A stretch of 64,000 nucleotides of DNA from Cytophagaceae bacterium (GTDB lineage Bacteria; Bacteroidota; Bacteroidia; Cytophagales; UBA9547): positions 1 to 64,000 of the forward strand of contig JAIYAU010000054.1 in the NCBI GenBank assembly GCA_027488865.1, in the 5' to 3' direction. Below are positions 43,655 through 57,925 of this stretch, piece after piece; positions within the stretch are counted from its first letter, which is position 1, and each line of letters opens with the position of its first letter. The translations under genes were made by a program, and so were the position numbers. Below the pieces are notes generated by a model. It saw nothing but the letters and a program-made list of their open reading frames with translations, had not been told where the DNA came from and made no database searches.

Positions 43655-43984
43655 TTATATTGCGATGTAAATTGTACCTGCCTCAACCTTAATTTCATAG
43701 GTACTAATGTGATAATCTTCACCACTTAAACATTGGCCTGTTTCTAAGGAAAATGTTTTTTTATGAAAAGGGCAAGCAACTTTTGGTTCACCAGCTTTAT
43801 CGCCAATCATTCCCCTTGAGAGAATCATTTGTTGTTTATGTGGGCACATATTGTCTGTAGCATACCATTTGCCAGTTCTGGTAAAATTAAAAACAGCAAT
43901 TTGTTTATCATCCACTTTCACACAAGTACCGCCATTTTCTGGCACGTCATTGATGGAACACACTTCTATCCAAGTATTTGTCAT
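43655..43984 (-). CDS. nirD: Nitrite reductase small subunit (Rieske type)
   Basis: The 109-residue Rieske-fold protein retains all four [2Fe-2S] ligands (CPHKQQM and CPFHKKTF). E. coli NirD lacks these, so this is the cluster-bearing form. It is the accessory subunit of NADH-dependent assimilatory nitrite reductase. It starts 43 bp after the nirB stop and is co-transcribed with it. Confidence 0.9.
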   Translation of the reverse strand: MTNTWIEVCSINDVPENGGTCVKVDDKQIAVFNFTRTGKWYATDNMCPHKQQMILSRGMIGDKAGEPKVACPFHKKTFSLETGQCLSGEDYHISTYEIKVEAGTIYIAI

Positions 43985-44027: not shown

Positions 44028-46541
44028 CTAACTGACCCAGTTAACCGGGAATTTCTGACCTCTTTCTACCTTAAACTCTATTGTAGGATCGGTTTCTTTA
44101 GAATTGGCAAAATGGGTAAATCTTTTCCTTAACTCTGGATTTTCCACTACTTCTTTCCACTCACACTTATAGGTGTTTATCATAAAATTCATCTCCTCTT
44201 CAAGTTGTTGAGCGATTCCAAGCGAGTCATTTACAACTACTTGTTTGAGGTAGTCTATTCCTCCTTCTAGTTTATTGAGCCATGTAGCAGTTCTTGTAAG
44301 TGGCTCCGCCGTTTTTATGTAAAACATTAAAAATCTATCCAAATATTGTATGCACGTTTCTTTGTCTATGTCGGTCGCAAGCAGCACGGCATGTTGAGGT
44401 TTAGAACCGCCATTGCCACATACAAATAAGTTCCAACCCTTCTCTGTAGCAATTATTCCAAAGTCCTTAGACTGAGCTTCAGCACATTCTCTTATACAAC
44501 CTGACACCCCAGACTTAAATTTGTGAGGAGCTCTCAGACCTCTATACCTGTTTTCCAATTCAATAGCAAATCCCACTGAATCATGCAGACCATACCTGCA
44601 CCAAGTGGAACCAACACAACTCTTTACGGTTCTTAAAGACTTACCGTAAGCATGCCCACTTTCAAAACCAGCCTTAACCAACTCTTCCCATATGTCGGGC
44701 AATTGGCTCACATGTGCCCCAAACATGTCTATCCGTTGACCACCAGTGATTTTGGTATATAAATTATATTTTTTAGCAACCTCCCCAATAACAATTAGTT
44801 TGTCTGGGGTAATTTCTCCACCTGGAATTCTTGGCACTACAGAATAACTACCACCTTTTTGCAAATTGGCCAAATACCTATCATTAGAATCTTGAATGGT
44901 ATCTTGCTTGAGAATAAACTCGTTGTATATACTGGCAAGTATTGACGCAAGTGCAGGTTTGCAAATTTCACATCCATTTCCTTTGCCGTGTTTATCTAAA
45001 ATTTGATTATAATTGGTTAAATTATTAACCTTGATTAAACTAAATAATTCTTGTCGTGTATAATCAAAATGTTCACAAATGGTGTTTCTAACCATTATTC
45101 CCATAGATTTTTTTGTTGCGGCAATAATATCCTTAACCATTGGTACACAACCACCACATCCCGATCCAGCTTTGCAACTAGCTTTTACTCCAACAAAGTC
45201 AATATCACTTGCATCTTTTACTATATCCACTATCAACCCTTTGCTTACAGCTTCGCAAGAACAAATAAGTGCATCGTCTGGCAAAGACTCAACACCAGAA
45301 CCTTCTGCCGCTCCCTTACCACCTCTTGCGCCAAGCATGAGGTCTTCAGGATTAGGCGGTAAAACGATTTTGTTTTTGGTAGTTTGCAACAGCATGTTAT
45401 AATTTTCAGCTTCACCAACCAAAATGCCACCAAAAAGGGTTTTTCCGTCCAACGAAATATTCATTCGTTTGTAAACGCCTTTTTGTTTGTCTTCGTAAAT
45501 AATAGTTTGACATTCATTTTCAGTTCCAAAACAATCGCCAAAACTAGCCACATCTACCCCTAAGAGCTTAAGTTTGGTACTCATATCGTACGGAGCAAAT
45601 TGCTTTTCTGCTCCAATAAGTTGATTTACAACCACATCGGCCATTTCGTAACCTGGTGCCACAAGTCCGTAAATCATATTTTTGTATAAGGCACATTCAC
45701 CTATTGCGTAAATGTTGGAATCGGTAGTTTGCAACATATCATTTACCATAATTCCTCCTCTTGGTCCAACCGCTAAGCCAATTTTGGTTGCTAGTTCGTC
45801 CCTTGGTTTTATACCAGCAGAAATCACTAATAAATCAGCTTTTAACTCCGTACCATCTTTAAATAATAACCCTGTAACCGTTTCTTCTCCTTCGATTGAA
45901 GCAGTATTTTTATTTAAATGCACCTTTATCCCTAAATCCTCTATCTTATTCTTTAAAATCAAACCACCCGCTTCATCCAGTTGTCTTGGCATCAATCTAG
46001 GTGCAAATTCTACCACATGCGTCTCTAGACCCATGTCACTTACGGCTTTGGCAGCTTCAAGACCTAGAAGCCCCCCTCCTATCACTACACCAATTTTAGC
46101 TTTTTTACCATGAGCAATGGTCATATCCAAGTCTTCAATGGTTCTATAAACAAAAACACCATCCTTTTCAACCCCTGGTATTGGAGGAACAAACGCAGCT
46201 GAACCGGTGGCAAAAATCAAGACATCATAATTTGCTACAACTCCTTTTAAACTGGTAACAACTTTATGGTCGCGGTCAATGGAAATAATAGGATCTCCCA
46301 AAACCAATTTAATTCCATTTTCTGTATACCACGACAAAGGAGCCATCAATAGGTCCTCTGCTGAGGTTCCTGTGAAATAAGAACTTAAATGCACCCTATC
46401 ATAGGCAGGTCTAATTTCTTCACCAAACACCAAAATCTCAAATTGCTTATCGGAATTTTTGGCTACCAATTTTTCACAAAACTTATATCCAACCATTCCG
46501 TTGCCAATCACAACTACCCTTCTTTTAAGTATATTTTTCAT
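44028..46541 (-). CDS. nirB: NAD(P)H nitrite reductase large subunit
   Basis: This 837-residue cytoplasmic enzyme reduces nitrite to ammonium with six electrons. Domains are an FAD/NAD oxidoreductase (about 1-380; VVVIGNGMVG and GVVIGGGLLGLEAA), a BFD-like [2Fe-2S] domain (about 425-480; LICSCEAV, GSGCGGC), a second BFD-like Cys site (HGKGNGCEICKPAL), a ferredoxin-like SIR half-domain, and the siroheme/[4Fe-4S] domain with CVGSTWC near residue 640 and GCIREC near 684. Length and order are canonical. It is divergent from cobA, which makes its siroheme precursor, and forms an operon with nirD. Confidence 0.96.
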   Translation of the reverse strand: MKNILKRRVVVIGNGMVGYKFCEKLVAKNSDKQFEILVFGEEIRPAYDRVHLSSYFTGTSAEDLLMAPLSWYTENGIKLVLGDPIISIDRDHKVVTSLKGVVANYDVLIFATGSAAFVPPIPGVEKDGVFVYRTIEDLDMTIAHGKKAKIGVVIGGGLLGLEAAKAVSDMGLETHVVEFAPRLMPRQLDEAGGLILKNKIEDLGIKVHLNKNTASIEGEETVTGLLFKDGTELKADLLVISAGIKPRDELATKIGLAVGPRGGIMVNDMLQTTDSNIYAIGECALYKNMIYGLVAPGYEMADVVVNQLIGAEKQFAPYDMSTKLKLLGVDVASFGDCFGTENECQTIIYEDKQKGVYKRMNISLDGKTLFGGILVGEAENYNMLLQTTKNKIVLPPNPEDLMLGARGGKGAAEGSGVESLPDDALICSCEAVSKGLIVDIVKDASDIDFVGVKASCKAGSGCGGCVPMVKDIIAATKKSMGIMVRNTICEHFDYTRQELFSLIKVNNLTNYNQILDKHGKGNGCEICKPALASILASIYNEFILKQDTIQDSNDRYLANLQKGGSYSVVPRIPGGEITPDKLIVIGEVAKKYNLYTKITGGQRIDMFGAHVSQLPDIWEELVKAGFESGHAYGKSLRTVKSCVGSTWCRYGLHDSVGFAIELENRYRGLRAPHKFKSGVSGCIRECAEAQSKDFGIIATEKGWNLFVCGNGGSKPQHAVLLATDIDKETCIQYLDRFLMFYIKTAEPLTRTATWLNKLEGGIDYLKQVVVNDSLGIAQQLEEEMNFMINTYKCEWKEVVENPELRKRFTHFANSKETDPTIEFKVERGQKFPVNWVS

Positions 46542-46834: not shown

Positions 46835-47650
46835 ATGAAAACTATAACTACACCTTCAGTTACATTAGTTGGCGCTGGACCTGGCGATCCAGACTTAATT
46901 ACCTTAAAAGGTTTAAAGGCCATTAAAAATGCTAACATAATTTTATATGACGCACTTTCCTCTATAGAACTACTCAATTATGCAAAAAGTGATTGTAAAA
47001 AACTATATGTAGGTAAAAGAAGGGGATGCAAATCAAACAAACAAGAAGTAATAAATGAACTATTAGTTTATTGCGCTTTTAAATATGGCAATGTTGTAAG
47101 ACTTAAAGGAGGTGATCCTTTTGTGTTTGGCAGAGGCTATGAAGAACTCGCACATTTAGACAGACATGGAATAATTACTAACGTCATTCCTGGCATATCT
47201 AGCTGTATTTCAGTACCAGCGTCAATCGGAATACCATTAACATGCCGCAATGTAAATGAGAGCTTTTGGGTAACCACCGGCACACTATCAAATGGCGAAA
47301 TCTCTAAAGACATAGCCTTGGCAGCCCAATCCAATGCTACTGTGGTAATATTAATGGGGTTAAATAAACTAAATGAAATTGTGGAAATATTTAGACAATA
47401 CGGAAAATCCAATTTACCAGCTGCAGTTATTCAAAATGGCACCATGTCAAACCAAAAGCATGTAATTGGAACCGTAACAAATATTCTAACAAAATCAAAA
47501 GAAGCAAATTTATCTACTCCTGCAGTGATAATTATTGGCGAAGTTGTGAACTTAAAACCAAAGGAAATAGATCAAATTCTGAACTATCAAGCGCAACTAT
47601 CTAGACAAACTGAAAACTTCAAAGAAACAAGTCAGATAAGTATAAATTAA
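46835..47650 (+). CDS. cobA: Uroporphyrinogen-III C-methyltransferase
   Basis: The 271-residue SUMT enzyme has VTLVGAGPGDPDLITLKGLKAI, the YVGKRRGCKS motif and VRLKGGDPFVFGRG, the three signatures of S-adenosylmethionine-dependent tetrapyrrole methyltransferases. It converts uroporphyrinogen III to precorrin-2, the precursor of siroheme. Siroheme is the cofactor of NirB, encoded divergently 293 bp away. It lacks the CysG-type dehydrogenase/ferrochelatase half, which must come from elsewhere. Confidence 0.93.
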   Translation: MKTITTPSVTLVGAGPGDPDLITLKGLKAIKNANIILYDALSSIELLNYAKSDCKKLYVGKRRGCKSNKQEVINELLVYCAFKYGNVVRLKGGDPFVFGRGYEELAHLDRHGIITNVIPGISSCISVPASIGIPLTCRNVNESFWVTTGTLSNGEISKDIALAAQSNATVVILMGLNKLNEIVEIFRQYGKSNLPAAVIQNGTMSNQKHVIGTVTNILTKSKEANLSTPAVIIIGEVVNLKPKEIDQILNYQAQLSRQTENFKETSQISIN

Positions 47651-48106: not shown

Positions 48107-49786
48107 ATGAAATTTAAACAGAAAGTAAAATTTGCCTTAATAATTGTAGTCGTTTCCTTTACTTGTATAAATGAAGCTTCTGCTCAGTTTGTTCCTGCAC
48201 AACCCATGGTGCAGTTGCCTGGATTACCCTTATGGACTATTAACGCACAAGTCCGAACTCGTACAGAATTAAGACACGGATTAGCTAACCCTTATCCTAA
48301 AGTAACTGGTACTGAAGGCCCTCCAGCGTTTTTTACCTCACAAAGAACGAATATCAACTTTGGTTTTCGTTGGGATAAAATGAATTTTAACGCTGATGTG
48401 CGTGATGTTCGTGTTTGGGGTCAAGATGCATCAACTATTAGTAATGCTGATGGCGCCAAACTATTCTTACATCAAGCATGGGGCGAATTTGTATTAGGTA
48501 CTACTGCTGATACAAATGCGCGATTTAAGTTCTTTGATAACTTTTCATTAAAAGTAGGTCGGCAAGAGCTGGTATATGATGACGTAAGACTGCTTGGCAA
48601 CCTTGATTGGCTACAACAAGGCAGAAGACACGATGCTGCCATTTTTAAATTTCTTAAAAAAGGATATAATCTGGACTTGGGCCTTGCAATGAATCAAAAT
48701 ACCGATGCATTTAACACCAATGGCAATGCTTATACTTCGGGTAATGTGCCGAGTACTGTAAGGAGCTCGACAGGAACTTGGGTAATATTACCAAATGCGA
48801 ATTTTATGCCACTTACTACAGCAAATGGATCCTCGATAAATGGCGCATTGTCGCCAAATAACCCTCCAAGTACCAACGGCATGAACCAAAATTACAAATT
48901 CATGCAATACTTTTATTTGACAAGAAAGTTTAACCAAACTAAAATATCTATTCTTGGCTTAAAAGATGATTTTTCCAAATCAAGGCTAGATTCAATAGAT
49001 TATGGAACTTCTGGCAAAGTGTATGGAAGGAGATTTGATCAAGCAAATAGGGTCTACTCTAGATATACTATTGGCGGTCAAATATCTACTCAAGGTGGTA
49101 ACGTAAGTTCCTTAAAATGGACCTTAAATGCAGGTGGTTATTTGCAATCCGGTAAAAGTAAAACTTTTGTTAGTGCAAAAAGTACCGAACAAAGAGACCT
49201 GAGTGCAAACCACCTCTTTATTTATGGTTTAGTTTCTAAAGGAAGATTTTCTGCAGGTCCTGGTTATGAAAGACTATCTGGAAATACCAACAACATAACC
49301 GTAAGCGCAACAGGCACGGCCGTATCCAGCACATTCAGCGGAACCGATCAAGCATTTGATCCATTGTACGGTACGCCACATAGATGGTGGGGATATATGG
49401 ATTATTTTTACGTCGGTACAGGCGCACCTAGAGCAGGATTACAAGATCTTTATGTTCGATTGAAATATGACGCTAGGGATTTGTTTATTACCCTTGATGC
49501 ACATCGTTTTTCTGCAGCAGATCAAATTAATCTTACCACACAAGGTGGAAATACCGAAAAAATGAATTCTTTATATGGTTATGAGGTGGATTTAGTTGCT
49601 AATTATCAGTTCAATAGATTTTGTAATCTAGAGGCAGGGGCTTCTGTTTTCTCTTCAACTAAAACCTTGGAAGCTTCTAAGCTTGGTACTGTCGGCAAGA
49701 CAAATAGCCTAAATTATTGGTCCTATTTACAGCTTAACATCCGACCAGATTTCTTATTTCAAAAACCAATTCCTATTGCTAACTAA
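48107..49786 (+). CDS. Alginate-export-family outer-membrane channel of the nitrate operon
   Basis: The 559-residue protein has a signal peptide (1-26, EASAQ). The mature part begins LPGLPLWTINAQVRTRTELRHG, then RTNINFGFRWDK, FSLKVGRQELVYDDVRLLG and LDWLQQGRRHDAAIFKF, which are recurrent motifs of the alginate_exp family of outer-membrane beta-barrels. It lies 33 bp upstream of nrtA, so I infer it passes nitrate or nitrite across the outer membrane rather than alginate. Predicted strands run to the C-terminus (LQLNIRPDFLF). Confidence 0.85.
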   Translation: MKFKQKVKFALIIVVVSFTCINEASAQFVPAQPMVQLPGLPLWTINAQVRTRTELRHGLANPYPKVTGTEGPPAFFTSQRTNINFGFRWDKMNFNADVRDVRVWGQDASTISNADGAKLFLHQAWGEFVLGTTADTNARFKFFDNFSLKVGRQELVYDDVRLLGNLDWLQQGRRHDAAIFKFLKKGYNLDLGLAMNQNTDAFNTNGNAYTSGNVPSTVRSSTGTWVILPNANFMPLTTANGSSINGALSPNNPPSTNGMNQNYKFMQYFYLTRKFNQTKISILGLKDDFSKSRLDSIDYGTSGKVYGRRFDQANRVYSRYTIGGQISTQGGNVSSLKWTLNAGGYLQSGKSKTFVSAKSTEQRDLSANHLFIYGLVSKGRFSAGPGYERLSGNTNNITVSATGTAVSSTFSGTDQAFDPLYGTPHRWWGYMDYFYVGTGAPRAGLQDLYVRLKYDARDLFITLDAHRFSAADQINLTTQGGNTEKMNSLYGYEVDLVANYQFNRFCNLEAGASVFSSTKTLEASKLGTVGKTNSLNYWSYLQLNIRPDFLFQKPIPIAN

Positions 49787-49819: not shown

Positions 49820-51040
49820 ATGAAAAAGATTTTATCAATATTAACTAGTCATTGTCTAGGCGTAATAAGTTTAATCTTGGGTATATGCAGTGCTTCGGCC
49901 CAAGAACCAATTAAATTAGGTTTTATTCCTCTTACAGACTGTGCTCCTTTAGTAATTGCCAAAGAAATGGGCTTTTTTAAAAAATACGGTGTAAATGTAG
50001 TATTGAGCAAAGAAGCATCATGGGCCAATATTCGTGACAAAGTTTTAACAGGGGAACTTGACGGAGCTCATTGCCTCTTTAGTATGCCATTTTCGGTTAA
50101 TACAGGTGTGGGAGGTAAAGAAGGTCAAGAAATGCGTATTGCCATGGTGCTTAACAACAACGGACAAGGCATAACACTTTCCAAAGAAGTTTGCGGTTCT
50201 ATTGCCTACAAGCAATATAATAAGGTACCTGATGCAGTAAAGGCGATTCAAGCAAGAAAAGGTAAAATGACCTTTGCCATGACTTTCCCAGGTGGTACGC
50301 ATGATATGTGGCTAAGGATATTTCTTGCAAACTCTAACATAGACCAAAAGAAAGTTAACATCATAACAATACCTCCTCCACAAATGGTGGCTAACATGAG
50401 AGCAGATAATATGGAAGGTTATTGTGTTGGTGAGCCTTGGAATGGTGTAGCTGCTGCTCAAAACGTGGGTTTTACCATGTGTGCAACCCAAGACATTTGG
50501 AAACACCACCCAGAAAAAGCATTAGTTGTTAACAAAGATTTTGCAGATACCAAAAAGGAAGACTTAAAAAAGGTAATGAAAGCCATTTTGGAAGCATGTC
50601 AATGGCTCGACAATATGGGAAATCGCACCAAAGCAGCCAATATGATTTCTGATGCTCGCTATGTAAATGCACGCGCACAATTACCAGCATTAGAAGCTAG
50701 GTTAAAAGGCAAGTCAGATCTTGGCTGTGACTTGGGTGTGGTCACTTATAAAGACGATTATATGACATTTTTTAAAAATGGTTTTGTAAACATGCCTCGT
50801 AAGTCACACGGAATATGGTTTATGACTCAATATGTTAGATTTGGATATTTGGATAAACTTCCGGCTAACATGGAAGCCATTGCTGATAAACTAATCTTGG
50901 ATGAGTTATATGCTGAGGTCGCAAAGGAAATGAATATCCCATTACAAGATGACGATATGAAACCATTTACTTTGACCCTCGATAAAACACCATTTGATCC
51001 TAAAAATCCTGCAGAATTCTTAAAAACTTGTAAAAAATAG
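49820..51040 (+). CDS. nrtA: Nitrate ABC transporter substrate-binding protein
   Basis: The 406-residue protein has a signal peptide (1-27, CSASAQ). The mature part is of the NrtA/CmpA/SsuA-like family: IKLGFIPLTDCAPLVIAKEMGFFKKYGV, GAHCLFSMPFS, MTFPGGTHDMWLR, GYCVGEPWNG. These correspond to the NrtA substrate pocket. It would bind nitrate (perhaps nitrite) in the periplasm and feed NrtB-NrtC. A strong terminator separates it from nrtB, which would give more binding protein than permease. Confidence 0.9.
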   Translation: MKKILSILTSHCLGVISLILGICSASAQEPIKLGFIPLTDCAPLVIAKEMGFFKKYGVNVVLSKEASWANIRDKVLTGELDGAHCLFSMPFSVNTGVGGKEGQEMRIAMVLNNNGQGITLSKEVCGSIAYKQYNKVPDAVKAIQARKGKMTFAMTFPGGTHDMWLRIFLANSNIDQKKVNIITIPPPQMVANMRADNMEGYCVGEPWNGVAAAQNVGFTMCATQDIWKHHPEKALVVNKDFADTKKEDLKKVMKAILEACQWLDNMGNRTKAANMISDARYVNARAQLPALEARLKGKSDLGCDLGVVTYKDDYMTFFKNGFVNMPRKSHGIWFMTQYVRFGYLDKLPANMEAIADKLILDELYAEVAKEMNIPLQDDDMKPFTLTLDKTPFDPKNPAEFLKTCKK

Positions 51041-51058
51041 ATTGATTGTTGCGTGTTG

Positions 51059-51095
51059 CTGAGCGAGTTGCAGATAGCTACTCGTTCAGTTTTTT
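51059..51095 (+). terminator. Intrinsic terminator/attenuator between nrtA and nrtB
   Basis: CTGAGCGAGT (51059-51068) pairs with ACTCGTTCAG (51080-51089), with one G-U pair and an 11-nt loop, then six T residues. Since nrtB-nrtC follow in the same direction with no obvious new promoter, it likely causes partial termination. Confidence 0.75.
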
Positions 51096-51139
51096 GAGAA
51101 AATTATTAGAATTTTATTAATAGCGAAACCATAATTCAC

Positions 51140-51949
51140 ATGAAAACAACTGTAAAATCTCTTAAATGGATGTTATTAAAAATAAGTCCAATATTATATT
51201 TCCTAGGAAGTTTCTTCCTGTTGTGCCTAATATGGCAGGTTATTCATCTTCAAACAAAAGGTGATATTCCTGGACCTATTTCAACCTTTAAAATTTTTGA
51301 AGAATTATTTGTGCTAGAAGATCCCATGTACGATAATCCTGAAGATCCAGGGTATAAAGGTATTCTTATACAATTGATCAGCTCATTAGGGCGTGTCTTT
51401 TTAGGATTTGGCCTAGGTAGCTTGGTCGCTATCCCATTAGGTTTATTAATGGGTTCTAGTAAAGTAGGTCTTAATTTGATTAACCCAATTGTTCAAATAC
51501 TTCGTCCAGTTTCGCCTTTGGCATGGTTTCCTTTGGGCATGATAGCAATGAAGTCTGCGGGTGGTGCCACGATTTTCATGATTTTTATTACTTGTTTATG
51601 GCCTACTTTAATTAACACGGCGTTTGGTGTATCATCAATTCCTCAAGATCATAAAAATGTAGGTAAAGCATTTGGTTTCTCACTATGGAAATATGTAACT
51701 AAAATAATGCTTCCATATACTCTACCACACATCTTCACAGGCCTTCGACTTAGCATTGGTGTAGCTTGGTTGGTAATTGTGGCAGGAGAAATGTTATCTG
51801 GTGGCTTAGGAATTGGCTTTTTTGTATGGGACAGTTATAATGCTGGTAGCCTTGAACGCGTTTTAACCGCCATCATTATCATTGGTTTGGTTGGATTATT
51901 CTTAGACAAGGCTTTTAACTATGTACAGAAAAAAGTTACCTTTTCTTAA
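51140..51949 (+). CDS. nrtB: Nitrate ABC transporter permease
   Basis: The 269-residue inner-membrane protein of the BPD transporter family has about six helices. The cytoplasmic EAA-type loop is GKAFGFSLWKYVTKIMLPYTLP followed by ...GLRLSIGVAWLVIVAGEML, characteristic of the NrtB/SsuC/TauC group. The P-S-P-type segment ILRPVSPLAWFPLGMIAM is also diagnostic. It forms the transmembrane channel for the NrtA-bound anion. It precedes nrtC by 51 bp. Confidence 0.92.
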   Translation: MKTTVKSLKWMLLKISPILYFLGSFFLLCLIWQVIHLQTKGDIPGPISTFKIFEELFVLEDPMYDNPEDPGYKGILIQLISSLGRVFLGFGLGSLVAIPLGLLMGSSKVGLNLINPIVQILRPVSPLAWFPLGMIAMKSAGGATIFMIFITCLWPTLINTAFGVSSIPQDHKNVGKAFGFSLWKYVTKIMLPYTLPHIFTGLRLSIGVAWLVIVAGEMLSGGLGIGFFVWDSYNAGSLERVLTAIIIIGLVGLFLDKAFNYVQKKVTFS

Positions 51950-52000
51950 TTGAAATAGCACTTAACAACAAAGAATGTTAAAAAAATAAATAAATACACA

Positions 52001-52852
52001 ATGGAAACAAAATCATATTTGGTAGATTCTGCAACCGAGTTTCACAAACTACCAGCAAGTACTAGTATAAACATAAATAACGTTACTGTATCTTTCGATA
52101 CCCCAAAAGGCGAATTTATTGCTGTTAAGGACATAAATCTTACTATACAAAAAGGAGAGATTGTTTCATTAATTGGGCACTCTGGTTGTGGAAAATCTAC
52201 ACTCATGAATACCATCAGCGGCATGGTTTCTCCTTCCAAAGGTCAGGTTATTGCTAATAATAAAATTGTAACAGGCCCAGGACCGGACCGGGGAATTGTT
52301 TTTCAAAACTATTCGCTACTCCCTTGGCTATCAGTATATAAAAATATCTATGAAGCAGTTGATTCTGTACTTTCGGATAAAACACAATCAGAAAAAAGAA
52401 CGATAGTTGAAGAACATTTAAAAATGGTGAATCTGTTTGAACACAAAGACAAGCTTCCGGGTCAATTGTCGGGTGGAATGAAACAACGCGTGGCTATCGC
52501 ACGTGCATTTGCAATTAACCCTAGCATCTTACTACTTGATGAGCCATTTGGAGCACTTGATGCATTAACCAAGGCATCACTTCATATAGAATTACTCAAA
52601 CTTTGGAATCTAGATAACAGAAATAAAACCATCGTTATGGTTACCCATGATATTGAAGAAGCAATTTTCTTATCAGACAAGGTAGTTGTTATGAATAACG
52701 GTCCTGCTGCTACCATTCGTGAAATTGTAGATGTTAATATTGAAAGACCAAGAAACAAAAAAGACATTGTACATGTGCCCGAATACATGAAAACACACGA
52801 CAAATTGTTGGGATTATTGATGGATAAGTTTTCAATAGAAGACACTCATTAA
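52001..52852 (+). CDS. nrtC: Nitrate ABC transporter ATP-binding protein
   Basis: The 283-residue ATPase has Walker A GHSGCGKST, Q-loop QNYSLLPW, signature LSGGMKQRVAIARA, Walker B ILLLDEPFGALDA and the VTHDIEEA His switch. The sequence PGPDRGIVFQNY and NNGPAATIREIVDV tail are typical of the nitrate/taurine group. It lacks the C-terminal NrtA-like regulatory domain of cyanobacterial NrtC, so it resembles NrtD in architecture. It energises import with NrtA and NrtB. Confidence 0.88.
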   Translation: METKSYLVDSATEFHKLPASTSININNVTVSFDTPKGEFIAVKDINLTIQKGEIVSLIGHSGCGKSTLMNTISGMVSPSKGQVIANNKIVTGPGPDRGIVFQNYSLLPWLSVYKNIYEAVDSVLSDKTQSEKRTIVEEHLKMVNLFEHKDKLPGQLSGGMKQRVAIARAFAINPSILLLDEPFGALDALTKASLHIELLKLWNLDNRNKTIVMVTHDIEEAIFLSDKVVVMNNGPAATIREIVDVNIERPRNKKDIVHVPEYMKTHDKLLGLLMDKFSIEDTH

Positions 52853-52921: not shown

Positions 52922-55900
52922 GTGAAAGAAACTTTTAAATCCACCTGTTCCTATTGTGGTGTAGGCTGTGGTATTGTAGTACAAAAAGACCGTGACGGAA
53001 AACTAAAATTAGAGGGAGATAAGGACCACCCTGGGAGCAAAGGAATGCTTTGTTCAAAGGGTATGAACTTGCACTACACAGTACAAGACAAATCAGATAG
53101 GTTATTATTTCCTGAAATGCGTTGGGCAAAAAACATGCCTCTACAACGAGTTTCGTGGGATACGGCTTTGGATCGTGCAGCAGCCGTATTTAAAACGTTT
53201 ATTGAAAAGTTTGGACCAGATTCTGTAGGATTTTATGTTTCTGGGCAATGCCTTACAGAAGAATATTATATTATTAACAAGCTTATTAAAGGATTCATTG
53301 GAAGCAATAACATTGATACCAACTCAAGATTATGCATGAGTTCGGCAGTGGTGGGATATAAAATGACTCTAGGCGAAGATGCTGTTCCTTTGAGTTATGA
53401 CGACATCGAACTGGCTGATACCTTTTTTATTACTGGTGCTAACCCTGCATGGTGTCATCCAATTTTATTTAGAAGGATAGAAGCACATAAAGCGGCAAAT
53501 CCTGAGGTTAAAATTATAGTGGTAGATCCCAGAAAAACACAAACAGCTGCAATGGCTGACTTGCATCTACAAATTAATCCAGGAACGGACGTAGAACTTT
53601 ATAATGCCATTGGAAGAATCTTGATCGAAAGGGATATGGTGGATCAATCATTTGTAGACAATCATGCGGATGGATTTGAACAATACAAAATACAAGTACT
53701 AAAACATACCCTTAAGGAATCTGCAAAGATATGTGGTGTTAAAGCAGATGACATACGATGGGCAGCAGAATATATTGGTAGAGCTGAGGGATTTATAAGT
53801 ATGTGGACGATGGGGCTTAACCAAAGTGTTATTGGGGTTAATAAAAATTTAGCTTTAATTAACCTTTCGTTAATAACAGGCAAAATAGGTAAACCTGGCA
53901 ATGGACCTTTTTCACTAACAGGACAGCCAAATGCCATGGGTGGTAGAGAGGTAGGCGGATTGGCTAATTTATTACCAGCTCACCGAGATTTACTCAATCC
54001 CTTGCATCGTGAAGAAATTCAAGCATTTTGGGGCGGTACGACCATCGCCCCTAAGCCAGGTCTGACAGCAGTAGAAATGTTTGATGCATTAGCCGATGGT
54101 CGTATGAAAGCAATATGGGTGGTATGCACTAATCCCCTAGTGAGCCTACCTGATTCTCGAAAAGTGGAAGAAGCCTTAAAAAAGGCTAAATTTGTCGTCG
54201 TTCAAGATGTTTCCAATAAGTCTGATACACTTTTGTACGCCGATTTAGTATTACCCGCCGCCGCTTGGGCTGAAAAAGAAGGCACCATGACCAATTCAGA
54301 CCGAAGAATTAGCCATTTGAGCAAAATTGTTGATGCCCCAGGTGAAGCTTTGCCAGATACTGTAATTATTCAAAAATTTGCTCAAAAAATGGGTTTTGGC
54401 AAGTATTTTGACTATCCAACCATTCAATCGGTATATGAAGAATATTGTAGGATAACCAAAGGTACTAACATCGATATCAGTGGATTGACCTATGATTATT
54501 TAAAACAAAAAGGCACCACACAATGGCCTTTCCCAGCAGGTGCTAACGAAGGCACCAAAAGATTGTTTACAGACCACCAATTTTATACTTCGAATAAAAA
54601 AGCGCAGATTCATCCAGTACCGCCTGACAACCAATCTGAAGACTTAGATGACAAATTTCCATTAATTTTAACTACTGGGCGCATTAGGGATCAATGGCAT
54701 ACCATGACCAAAACTGGCAAGGTCAACAAACTAAATCAACATATACCTCAGCCATTTCTTGAAATAAACCCTTTGGATGCGGAAGCAAGAGGTATAATAG
54801 AAGGCACCCCGTTATTGGTGACAGGCAGACGAGGTGAGGTACGAGTAAATGCAAAGGTAACAGCTGATATCAAACAAGGGGTGGTCTTTTTACCAATGCA
54901 CTGGGGCAAAACGTTACAAAAAGATTTTAGTAGAGCTAACAACCTCACAAACAGTTTATTCGACCCAAAATCAAAGGAACCTGACTTTAAATTTGCAGCT
55001 GTTCAAGTAGAAAAATTCATTAAACCTGTCCAAAAAATTGTTATAATTGGTGCAGGTGCTGCCGCAGTTGGTTTTGTGAAAAGTTACCGTGAACTCAATC
55101 AAACCGACGAAATTCATATCTTTAGTAAAGAAATTTATCCATTTTATAATAGAGTAATGTTACCAGATTACTTAAGTGGGGAGCAATCATGGGAACAATT
55201 GATTAAGATAAAAAGTGAAGAATTTGTATCCCTTAAAATAGTAACCCATGCTGGGGTGAGCATTGAAAAAATTGACAAAAGTAAAAAGGAGGTAACAGAC
55301 AGCACTGGACATATTGAAAAATATGATATTTTGCTACTGGGCATGGGAAGCAGAGCCAATAATCTCAAAGATATCCCAAAGGGGTTACCGGGTATTTTTA
55401 ACATGAGAAGTCGCCAAGATGCGGATGCACTTAAAAATGTTGCCATACCAAATAGTCATGTTGTTATTGTCGGTGGTGGCCTTTTGGGTCTTGAACTAGC
55501 GGCGTCTTTAAGAGAAATAAATGTCGAAGTAACGGTTATTCAACGTATATCTCGACTTATGGATCGCCAGCTGGACGAAGTTGGAGCTGGCCTTCTGCAT
55601 GAAGAGATGATCGACAGAGGTATAGAAATTTTATATAATGATGAAGTACAAGGATATACAGGCAAGGAACATCTAACTGGGCTTAAACTTAAGTCAGGCA
55701 GGTTGTTATCTTGTGTTGCAGTGGTATTTGCTATAGGCACCCAACCCAATGTAGAACTGGCACAAGCAAGTGGGTTAATCTGTAAACGTGGTGTGGTGGT
55801 AAACGATTATCTACAAACGTCTGATCCTGATATATTTGCAATGGGTGAACTAGCAGAGCATAAAGGCATCTTGTACGGTATTACCGCAGCTGCAGAACAA

Positions 55901-56452
55901 CAAGCCCACACCATTGCACATTTTCTTAACGGAGACCTTTATAGTTTTTATAAAGGTTCGTTGTTTATGAATATCCTTAAAATGCCGGGGCTAAACTTAT
56001 GCTCACTTGGCATGGTGGAAACTCCTCCTAATCCTGACTATGAGGAAGTTGTGTTCATTGATAAATCGAAACGCTTTTATAAAAAATGTATCATTCACCA
56101 AGACAAATTGGTTGGAGCCATTTTGATTGGTGACAAGTCGGAGTTTCAAGAATATAAAGAATTAATTCAAAATAAAATTGAACTAAGTGATAAACGTCTT
56201 GAACTATTAAGATCTGGGAAAAAGGCAGAAACAGTTTTAGGCAAATTGGTGTGTTCTTGTAATGGAGTGGGTAAAGGAAATATTGTTCAAAAAATAGAAT
56301 CGGGTTGTGTCACTTTAAACGAATTGTGTAATAGTACTGGGGCGGGTATGGGCTGTGGCAGTTGCAAACCAGAAGTAAAAGAAATTTTAAACGGTTTTTT
56401 AGAAGCGACTAGGGTATCAGTTCCGAGCAAACTGACCCTAAAATTAATGTAA
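52922..56452 (+). CDS. Single-chain assimilatory nitrate reductase: molybdopterin domain fused to FAD/NAD and BFD [2Fe-2S] modules
   Basis: The 1176-residue protein starts at GTG: a stop at 52916 lies just upstream and the Cys motif begins at residue 9. Residues 1-700 are a NasA/NapA-type Mo-bisMGD reductase with a [4Fe-4S] site (C9, C12, C16, C44), and LCMSSAV with the likely Mo-ligand Cys138, GANPAWCHP and a C-terminal molydopterin dinucleotide-binding domain (GRIRDQWHTMT). About 705-1040 is an FAD/NAD oxidoreductase like NirB's (IVIIGAGAAAVGF, VVIVGGGLLGLELA). About 1105-1160 is a BFD [2Fe-2S] domain (LVCSCNGV, GMGCGSCKPEV). Electrons would flow NAD(P)H-FAD-[2Fe-2S]-[4Fe-4S]-Mo to reduce nitrate to nitrite. 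The separate NasB/NasC partner is thus built in. It is 69 bp after nrtC. Confidence 0.92.
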   Translation: MKETFKSTCSYCGVGCGIVVQKDRDGKLKLEGDKDHPGSKGMLCSKGMNLHYTVQDKSDRLLFPEMRWAKNMPLQRVSWDTALDRAAAVFKTFIEKFGPDSVGFYVSGQCLTEEYYIINKLIKGFIGSNNIDTNSRLCMSSAVVGYKMTLGEDAVPLSYDDIELADTFFITGANPAWCHPILFRRIEAHKAANPEVKIIVVDPRKTQTAAMADLHLQINPGTDVELYNAIGRILIERDMVDQSFVDNHADGFEQYKIQVLKHTLKESAKICGVKADDIRWAAEYIGRAEGFISMWTMGLNQSVIGVNKNLALINLSLITGKIGKPGNGPFSLTGQPNAMGGREVGGLANLLPAHRDLLNPLHREEIQAFWGGTTIAPKPGLTAVEMFDALADGRMKAIWVVCTNPLVSLPDSRKVEEALKKAKFVVVQDVSNKSDTLLYADLVLPAAAWAEKEGTMTNSDRRISHLSKIVDAPGEALPDTVIIQKFAQKMGFGKYFDYPTIQSVYEEYCRITKGTNIDISGLTYDYLKQKGTTQWPFPAGANEGTKRLFTDHQFYTSNKKAQIHPVPPDNQSEDLDDKFPLILTTGRIRDQWHTMTKTGKVNKLNQHIPQPFLEINPLDAEARGIIEGTPLLVTGRRGEVRVNAKVTADIKQGVVFLPMHWGKTLQKDFSRANNLTNSLFDPKSKEPDFKFAAVQVEKFIKPVQKIVIIGAGAAAVGFVKSYRELNQTDEIHIFSKEIYPFYNRVMLPDYLSGEQSWEQLIKIKSEEFVSLKIVTHAGVSIEKIDKSKKEVTDSTGHIEKYDILLLGMGSRANNLKDIPKGLPGIFNMRSRQDADALKNVAIPNSHVVIVGGGLLGLELAASLREINVEVTVIQRISRLMDRQLDEVGAGLLHEEMIDRGIEILYNDEVQGYTGKEHLTGLKLKSGRLLSCVAVVFAIGTQPNVELAQASGLICKRGVVVNDYLQTSDPDIFAMGELAEHKGILYGITAAAEQQAHTIAHFLNGDLYSFYKGSLFMNILKMPGLNLCSLGMVETPPNPDYEEVVFIDKSKRFYKKCIIHQDKLVGAILIGDKSEFQEYKELIQNKIELSDKRLELLRSGKKAETVLGKLVCSCNGVGKGNIVQKIESGCVTLNELCNSTGAGMGCGSCKPEVKEILNGFLEATRVSVPSKLTLKLM

Positions 56453-56461
56453 TTATTAAGC

Positions 56462-57925
56462 ATGAAATTTATTCCCATTAAAATCAACATACCTGGCGGA
56501 ATATTATCTCCGGGATATTTTGCCCAAATTGCCTCTTTGGCTCAGAAACATAATATACAAAATGTTTATGTAGGTGAACGCCAAAACCTTATACTACAAA
56601 CAGAGGAACTTACGGTTGAAAAGGTTTATAACGACCTTAAGTTAAATCAAATAGAATACACAACCCAACTACAAAATAATCCCAACATTGTAAGTTCCTA
56701 TGCCGCTGCTACCATTTTTACCGCGGCCAATACCTGGCTTAAAGAAGGTGTTTATAAGGATATTTTGGAAGGATTTGACCATAAGCCAATTTTAAAAGTA
56801 AACATAGTTGATATCACCCAACCATTAATTCCTCTTTTTACGGGTAACCTAAACTTTCTAGCATCGGAAACTCCAAATTTTTGGTATTTATTCTTGGAAC
56901 TACCACAATTTAAATCATTGCAGAAGTGGCCAACCTTGATCTTTTCGAATCATATTGACGAGCTGGTAAAAGAAATTGAACATGAATTTTTTGATAACTC
57001 TTTTAGTACTATAAATCAACTTTATGAAAGAGTAAGTCAAAAATATAAATTCATTACAAAAGACATTGAAAAAGAGGTAGTTCTGCCAAGATTACGATTT
57101 CCTATCTACGAAGGCATGAACAAAATGGGTGAAAAAAATTGGCTTGGTATTTATAGACGAAGTGCGTCCTTCAGCCCGTCTTTAATCATTGCCATTTGCC
57201 AACTTTGTGCTGATACAAAAGTGGGATTATTGTGCTTAACAACTTGGAAAAGCCTTTTAATAAAAGGTATCGAAGAAGAAGACCGCATCAAGTGGGAAAT
57301 GCTTTTAGGCCAATTTGGAGTAAATATTAGGCATGCTGCCGTTGACCTTAATTGGCAATTACCTGATTTAGATGATAAAGCTGCAGAATTAAAATCAACT
57401 TTATCACTCGACTTTGACAAAAAGGACATAAGAACATATGGCCTGAGTTTTGCCCTCAAAACAAGTGATTTAGAAGTATCAGCCTCAGTACTTATTGAGG
57501 AAAAACCACTTCATTCAATATTTGGAAAAAGTCTTATAAATACTTATCGAATAAGTCACACACCTAATTTTCAGCCTAATAATCCTAACTTTGTTGTTTT
57601 TGAAGAGGATGTGGCCAAAAGTGACCTTGCCAAATATATACAACGCTTATGCCGAAAATATTACCAACAACTTCCAGAAAGCAGTTTGATAACTACCGAA
57701 AATTTACAAATTAATCAACTATCTACTAGCGAATTATCTTTGATTTCGAATAAAATTTATCAATGTAAACATTGCCTTACCATTTATGACTCGGCCCTAG
57801 GCGACGAAAGCCAACAAATTGAGCCAGAATCCAATTTTGATTCACTTGATAAATACAATTGTCCCACCTGTGATGCGGCTAAAGAAGAATTTGTATTAGT
57901 AGAAAAACCTATGATTGAATTTTAA
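56462..57925 (+). CDS. Degenerate sulfite/nitrite-reductase-like protein with a C-terminal rubredoxin domain
   Basis: The 487-residue protein starts 9 bp after the nitrate reductase. Residues 1-80 (NIPGGILSPGYFAQIASLAQKH, GERQNLILQ, PNIVSSYAA) and about 210-310 (NWLGIYRRSASFSPSLIIAICQL, LLCLTTWKSLL) match the two ferredoxin-like half domains of nitrite/sulfite reductases. The core between lacks the CxxxxxC and CxxxC siroheme/[4Fe-4S] motifs: only isolated Cys remain. Residues about 433-475 are a full rubredoxin: YQCKHCLTIYDSALGDES and YNCPTCDAAKEEF, with Cys pairs at about 435/438 and 467/470. It thus cannot bind siroheme by the known site but can bind one iron. It probably passes electrons to, or assembles, the nitrate reductase. 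It is soluble with no signal peptide. Confidence 0.8.
   Translation: MKFIPIKINIPGGILSPGYFAQIASLAQKHNIQNVYVGERQNLILQTEELTVEKVYNDLKLNQIEYTTQLQNNPNIVSSYAAATIFTAANTWLKEGVYKDILEGFDHKPILKVNIVDITQPLIPLFTGNLNFLASETPNFWYLFLELPQFKSLQKWPTLIFSNHIDELVKEIEHEFFDNSFSTINQLYERVSQKYKFITKDIEKEVVLPRLRFPIYEGMNKMGEKNWLGIYRRSASFSPSLIIAICQLCADTKVGLLCLTTWKSLLIKGIEEEDRIKWEMLLGQFGVNIRHAAVDLNWQLPDLDDKAAELKSTLSLDFDKKDIRTYGLSFALKTSDLEVSASVLIEEKPLHSIFGKSLINTYRISHTPNFQPNNPNFVVFEEDVAKSDLAKYIQRLCRKYYQQLPESSLITTENLQINQLSTSELSLISNKIYQCKHCLTIYDSALGDESQQIEPESNFDSLDKYNCPTCDAAKEEFVLVEKPMIEF

Follow-up and report, generated by a model that had tools for sequence, protein, structure and literature searches.

Nitrate assimilation in the Bacteroidota is usually accounted for by two enzymes, the nitrate reductase NasA and the nitrite reductase NirBD. 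In Clostridium perfringens a rubredoxin has been proposed as the electron carrier to nitrate reductase. A rubredoxin is also named in the nitrate operon in descriptions of Aquirufa species (PMC11861422, PMC12528234), and PGAP gave the name "rubredoxin" to a gene of Spirosoma oryzicola (WP_232563077.1) that lies in the same gene order as the gene described here, with a tblastn match over 98% of its protein. The Aquirufa proteins very probably belong to the same family. As far as the accessible text of those descriptions goes, and likewise in Spirosoma, the protein is reported by annotation only, with no mention of a reductase scaffold or a lost cofactor, and our search of the literature found annotation-level mentions but no functional study or description of the scaffold. 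We call this protein P, as shorthand for the 487-amino-acid product of 56462-57925 (+) in the window, by which we mean the whole 64,000-nucleotide stretch of DNA that was analysed. P adds to the usual account a third, co-inherited protein that has been hidden under the name of rubredoxin.

The nitrate-assimilation locus

P lies in a cluster with the order siroheme methyltransferase, porin, NrtABC, NasA-FAD-BFD and P; NirBD is encoded divergently, on the opposite strand.

43655-43984 (-): NirD, Rieske-type small subunit
44028-46541 (-): NirB, large subunit of the working nitrite reductase, siroheme/[4Fe-4S] motif intact
46835-47650 (+): uroporphyrinogen-III C-methyltransferase (siroheme synthesis), annotated cobA at the same position in Spirosoma oryzicola
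48107-49786 (+): alginate-export-family outer-membrane porin, probably for nitrate (Pfam)
49820-52852 (+): NrtA/NrtB/NrtC-type nitrate ABC transporter, three genes (ORF, Pfam)
52922-56452 (+): assimilatory nitrate reductase of 1176 amino acids, NasA Mo domain, NirB-type FAD/NADH domain and BFD [2Fe-2S] (ORF, Pfam)
56462-57925 (+): P, a sulfite/nitrite-reductase scaffold predicted to be without siroheme/[4Fe-4S], plus C-terminal rubredoxin (ORF, Pfam, model, family alignment)
56462-57721 (+): scaffold of P, two-half NIR/SIR, residues 1-420, with R40-Q41, K112 and CxxC 246/249 (structure and profile alignment)
57758-57892 (+): rubredoxin domain of P, cysteines 435, 438, 467 and 470 (Pfam, cysteine motif)

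The start of P lies nine bases 3′ of the stop codon of the nitrate reductase ORF, the spacing given in the preliminary description of this DNA. That description also ascribed to the nitrate reductase an NAD(P)H-to-Mo path of its own, and the Pfam domains bear out an NADH-to-Mo path (Molybdopterin and Fe4S4, Pyr_redox_2 and Rubredoxin_C, and BFD). A 705-amino-acid, two-half protein of the siroheme sulfite/nitrite-reductase type is encoded on a separate contig of the same genome. Given this protein and the intact siroheme domain of NirB, P is neither the sole siroheme-type protein of the organism nor its nitrite reductase.

Two other components of such clusters were observed. The alginate-export-family porin recurs in 66 of 109 related loci, and is probably an outer-membrane channel for nitrate. 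Homologues of the nitrate reductase-associated family PF09655 occur in Bacteroidota nas clusters at 24 loci (including L036:10487-10990 (-) and L146:9468-9941 (+)), once between NasA and P, and the family also matched Synechococcus elongatus among the controls. There is no such homologue in the genome of the window, and a general third partner of this kind is ruled out by its occurrence in 1 of 30 genomes.

Structure of P

P has been modelled with AlphaFold2 from a 43-sequence alignment (pLDDT 89.7, pTM 0.79). Residues 1-420 superimpose on E. coli SiRHP (4g39) with a Z score of 27.8 over 385 residues at 3.4 Å, on spinach NiR with Z = 24.5 and on M. tuberculosis NirA with Z = 23.8 (Foldseek, VIA-align), while the P profile aligns with siroheme reductases of the CysI/NirA kind over 389-405 columns at probabilities of 97-98.5 (hhalign). 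Both pseudo-symmetric halves, each ferredoxin-like plus NIR_SIR, are present in these alignments. In Pfam the NIR_SIR_ferr domain is matched in two stretches (40.5 bits; cut-off 24) and Rubredoxin at residues 433-477 (46.6 bits; cut-off 23); PF01077, the siroheme/[4Fe-4S] domain, gave no match. The NIR/SIR scaffold with both halves that had been proposed from the sequence is therefore found in the model over the complete SiR/NiR fold, and the rubredoxin at the C-terminus, with all four cysteines present, is as intact as was claimed. Residues 430-482 align with D. gigas rubredoxin at 1.1 Å (Z = 9.5, VIA-align), and the four rubredoxin cysteines are invariant in all 107 aligned members of the family.

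The absence of the siroheme/[4Fe-4S] ligands also holds. The cluster cysteines 434, 440, 479 and 483 of CysI align with W298, D304, S335 and a gap, and the CX5C...CX3C motif is found in none of the 107 aligned members. Other elements of the pocket persist. The RQ motif of CysI (R117-Q118) is kept as R40-Q41 in the family alignment. CysI R83, R153, K215 and K217, which we take to be the anion-site residues, have fared differently: the first position (K/R7 of P) is K or R in 99 of 107 members, the K215 position is K or R in 61, and the K217 position (K112) is K in 103, while at R153 the arginine has given way to P, Q, N or A. Judged by these alignments, the catalytic centre of P is gone and the pocket is partly conserved; the scaffold should then be free of siroheme. 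A near-invariant CxxC lies in the second half at residues 246 and 249 (window ~57197-57208; C in 97 and 105 of 107 members), absent from E. coli CysI and outside the rubredoxin site.

The pocket that once held siroheme might still bind a ligand, either an anion such as nitrite or a tetrapyrrole without [4Fe-4S], with the electron of the rubredoxin used or gated there. We think this quite unlikely; if true, P would act between the nitrate and the nitrite reductase as an electron switch that channels nitrite or is gated by it. Alternatively P might sense redox state or nitrite and so regulate the pathway or the activity of an enzyme. Pseudoenzyme scaffolds often turn into sensors, and basic residues remain at anion-site positions (K/R7, K112), but the domain search found no DNA-binding or signalling domain in P and the position of the gene is typical of a structural subunit, so that we regard a sensor as very unlikely.

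Distribution and genomic linkage

How general is P? A single-sequence scan of genome contigs returned no relatives and an alignment was needed as query, with which at least 564 loci were found in GTDB genomes. The best 80 of these are all in the Bacteroidota, including Spirosoma, Dyadobacter, Hymenobacter, Mucilaginibacter and Pedobacter. Four relatives are on plasmids, all of Bacteroidota, and none was found in viral contigs. Full-length relatives are present in 23 of 296 genomes sampled from the phylum and in 51 of 148 from the order. The genes are under strong purifying selection, with dN/dS of 0.02-0.09, like that of NasA (15 close pairs).

These data bear on whether P is simply a functionless nitrite reductase copy in decay, as the loss of the cluster ligands alone might suggest. 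The preliminary description had noted that homologues with intact cluster cysteines would point that way, and none was found within the family. Family-wide loss of the cluster (107/107) together with purifying selection excludes recent decay, as does a family dispersed at 31-45% identity under strict linkage, and we find this explanation scarcely credible. Descent of P from the NirA of clusters that lack P finds no support in the profile comparison, where P scores those NirA proteins below several proteins of the sulfite-reductase type.

The survey of gene neighbourhoods found the proposed co-occurrence with the fused nitrate reductase: P is downstream of NasA on the same strand in all 105 loci showing both. 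The gap is below 400 bp in 87 of these, and in many the genes overlap by 4 bp. In two genomes (G373:C1 and G424:C1) NasA is split, with its Mo portion separate from the FAD-BFD portion, and P is still there. In the phylum sample full-length fused NasA occurs in 27 of 296 genomes, 22 with P and five without. NirB above cut-off, together with NirD, is found in exactly the 22 that have P; P, fused NasA and NirB thus occur together in 22 of 296 genomes, and NirB by itself in none. In the five genomes without P the cluster contains a NirA-type protein and NirBD is absent; NasA carries FAD and BFD domains there as it does in the others. In the order sample NasA, fused or split, is present in all 51 genomes with P and NirB in 50, the exception being a genome that is 84% complete. 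A role for P as a substitute for NirD is ruled out, as NirD accompanies NirB in 22 of 22 phylum genomes.

This distribution could mean that P serves nitrite reduction, linking NasA to NirBD through hand-over of nitrite or of electrons and not feeding the Mo enzyme. P is missing where fused NasA is used with NirA, it lies behind NirB(D) instead of NasA in one genome (G393) and beside NirB in another (G420), and its scaffold descends from enzymes handling nitrite or sulfite. Yet the translational coupling seen in many loci is to NasA and not NirB, and the contrast between NirA and NirBD tracks a deep split in the phylum that may be one event, so that it cannot alone tell which enzyme P serves. 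NirBD of other phyla works without P. On balance we consider service to NirBD doubtful.

P might instead be an assembly or maturation factor, either a chaperone for the Mo enzyme or a carrier of siroheme for NirB. It is a separate, adjacent gene retained with one molybdoenzyme, residues of the RQ motif of the siroheme pocket are still present, and MobA-like, MoaA, MoaE and similar genes are found in the nas clusters of its relatives. Against this, a rubredoxin would be superfluous for a chaperone, and genomes with fused NasA and no P must mature NasA anyway. The Mo-enzyme chaperones known to us (NarJ/TorD, NapD) have other folds. Such a factor is in our view unlikely.

Two kinds of natural exception connect the rubredoxin with its neighbours. 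In one genus (G388 C22 and G426 C1) a second copy of NasA has lost the BFD [2Fe-2S] domain, and P is still adjacent; the four rubredoxin cysteines can be read in the sequence of the P beside the BFD-less NasA of G388. Conversely, a genome with neither NasA nor NirB (G126) has a P, at a contig edge, that stops after the scaffold, the only loss of the rubredoxin among 108 sequences examined. Both are compatible with a rubredoxin acting together with NasA/NirBD, and each is a single case or lineage. One locus (L201:5597-10458 (+)) encodes a second, divergent NasA without BFD, followed by a P of its own and a MoaA-like gene; the substrate of this enzyme may be other than nitrate.

The role of P

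The SiR fold, the invariant rubredoxin cysteines, the linkage to NasA, the strict co-occurrence and the low dN/dS lead us to prefer, tentatively and with a probability of about 0.45, the view that P serves Bacteroidota nitrate assimilation as an accessory redox subunit dedicated to this system, composed of a docking scaffold and an electron-relaying rubredoxin. The preliminary description had offered electron donor, sensor and Mo-enzyme assembly as roles; the findings favour an accessory subunit that carries electrons and belongs with NasA/NirBD, sensing and assembly being less likely.

An ancestral two-half siroheme sulfite/nitrite reductase would have lost its [4Fe-4S]-siroheme centre and thereby catalysis, keeping the fold and part of the pocket surface and gaining a C-terminal rubredoxin. 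The scaffold would dock on the co-translated NasA-FAD-BFD, and may also touch NirBD. Electrons could then travel one at a time through the rubredoxin, either between the FAD domain of NirB type and the Mo/[4Fe-4S] part or on to an acceptor nearby. That the flavin domain of NasA is of the rubredoxin-reductase type (Pyr_redox_2 and Rubredoxin_C) favours such a relay, in which electrons would come from this domain, although the name Rubredoxin_C is common to NirB and many other reductases. P is not chemically required for the NADH-to-Mo path, since NasA has FAD and BFD of its own and five genomes use fused NasA without P. In many Bacteroidota its probable part is to assist, as a dedicated subunit, in the use of nitrate as nitrogen source.

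Comparison with known systems

NasG of Paracoccus, one of the flavoprotein or Rieske partners of assimilatory nitrate reductases, is encoded by a separate gene of the nas operon and is a partner in the electron supply of nitrate reductase, with a fold unrelated to P. The rubredoxin of Clostridium perfringens is stand-alone, without a SiR-like scaffold, while in P the scaffold is fused to it. In the flavorubredoxin NorV and the class III hybrid cluster protein a canonical CxxC...CxxC rubredoxin is likewise the terminal domain, but there it is joined to a catalytic module and in P to a reductase scaffold predicted to lack its cofactor. Flp of Bradyrhizobium (PMC4724949), another such partner, is also the product of a separate nas-operon gene tied to nitrate reductase electron supply, yet its fold is unrelated, and in the present cluster NasA already carries the NADH/FAD module as a fusion. 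With CysI and NirA, P shares the complete two-half fold, the RQ motif and profile homology over ~390 columns; it differs from them in lacking the [4Fe-4S]/siroheme cysteines, the PF01077 match and a conserved R153 position, and in its rubredoxin tail. P is thus a SiR/NiR-fold pseudoenzyme with a rubredoxin, outside the siroheme enzymes, and looks like a redox pseudoenzyme in which the catalytic centre has been swapped for an electron carrier.
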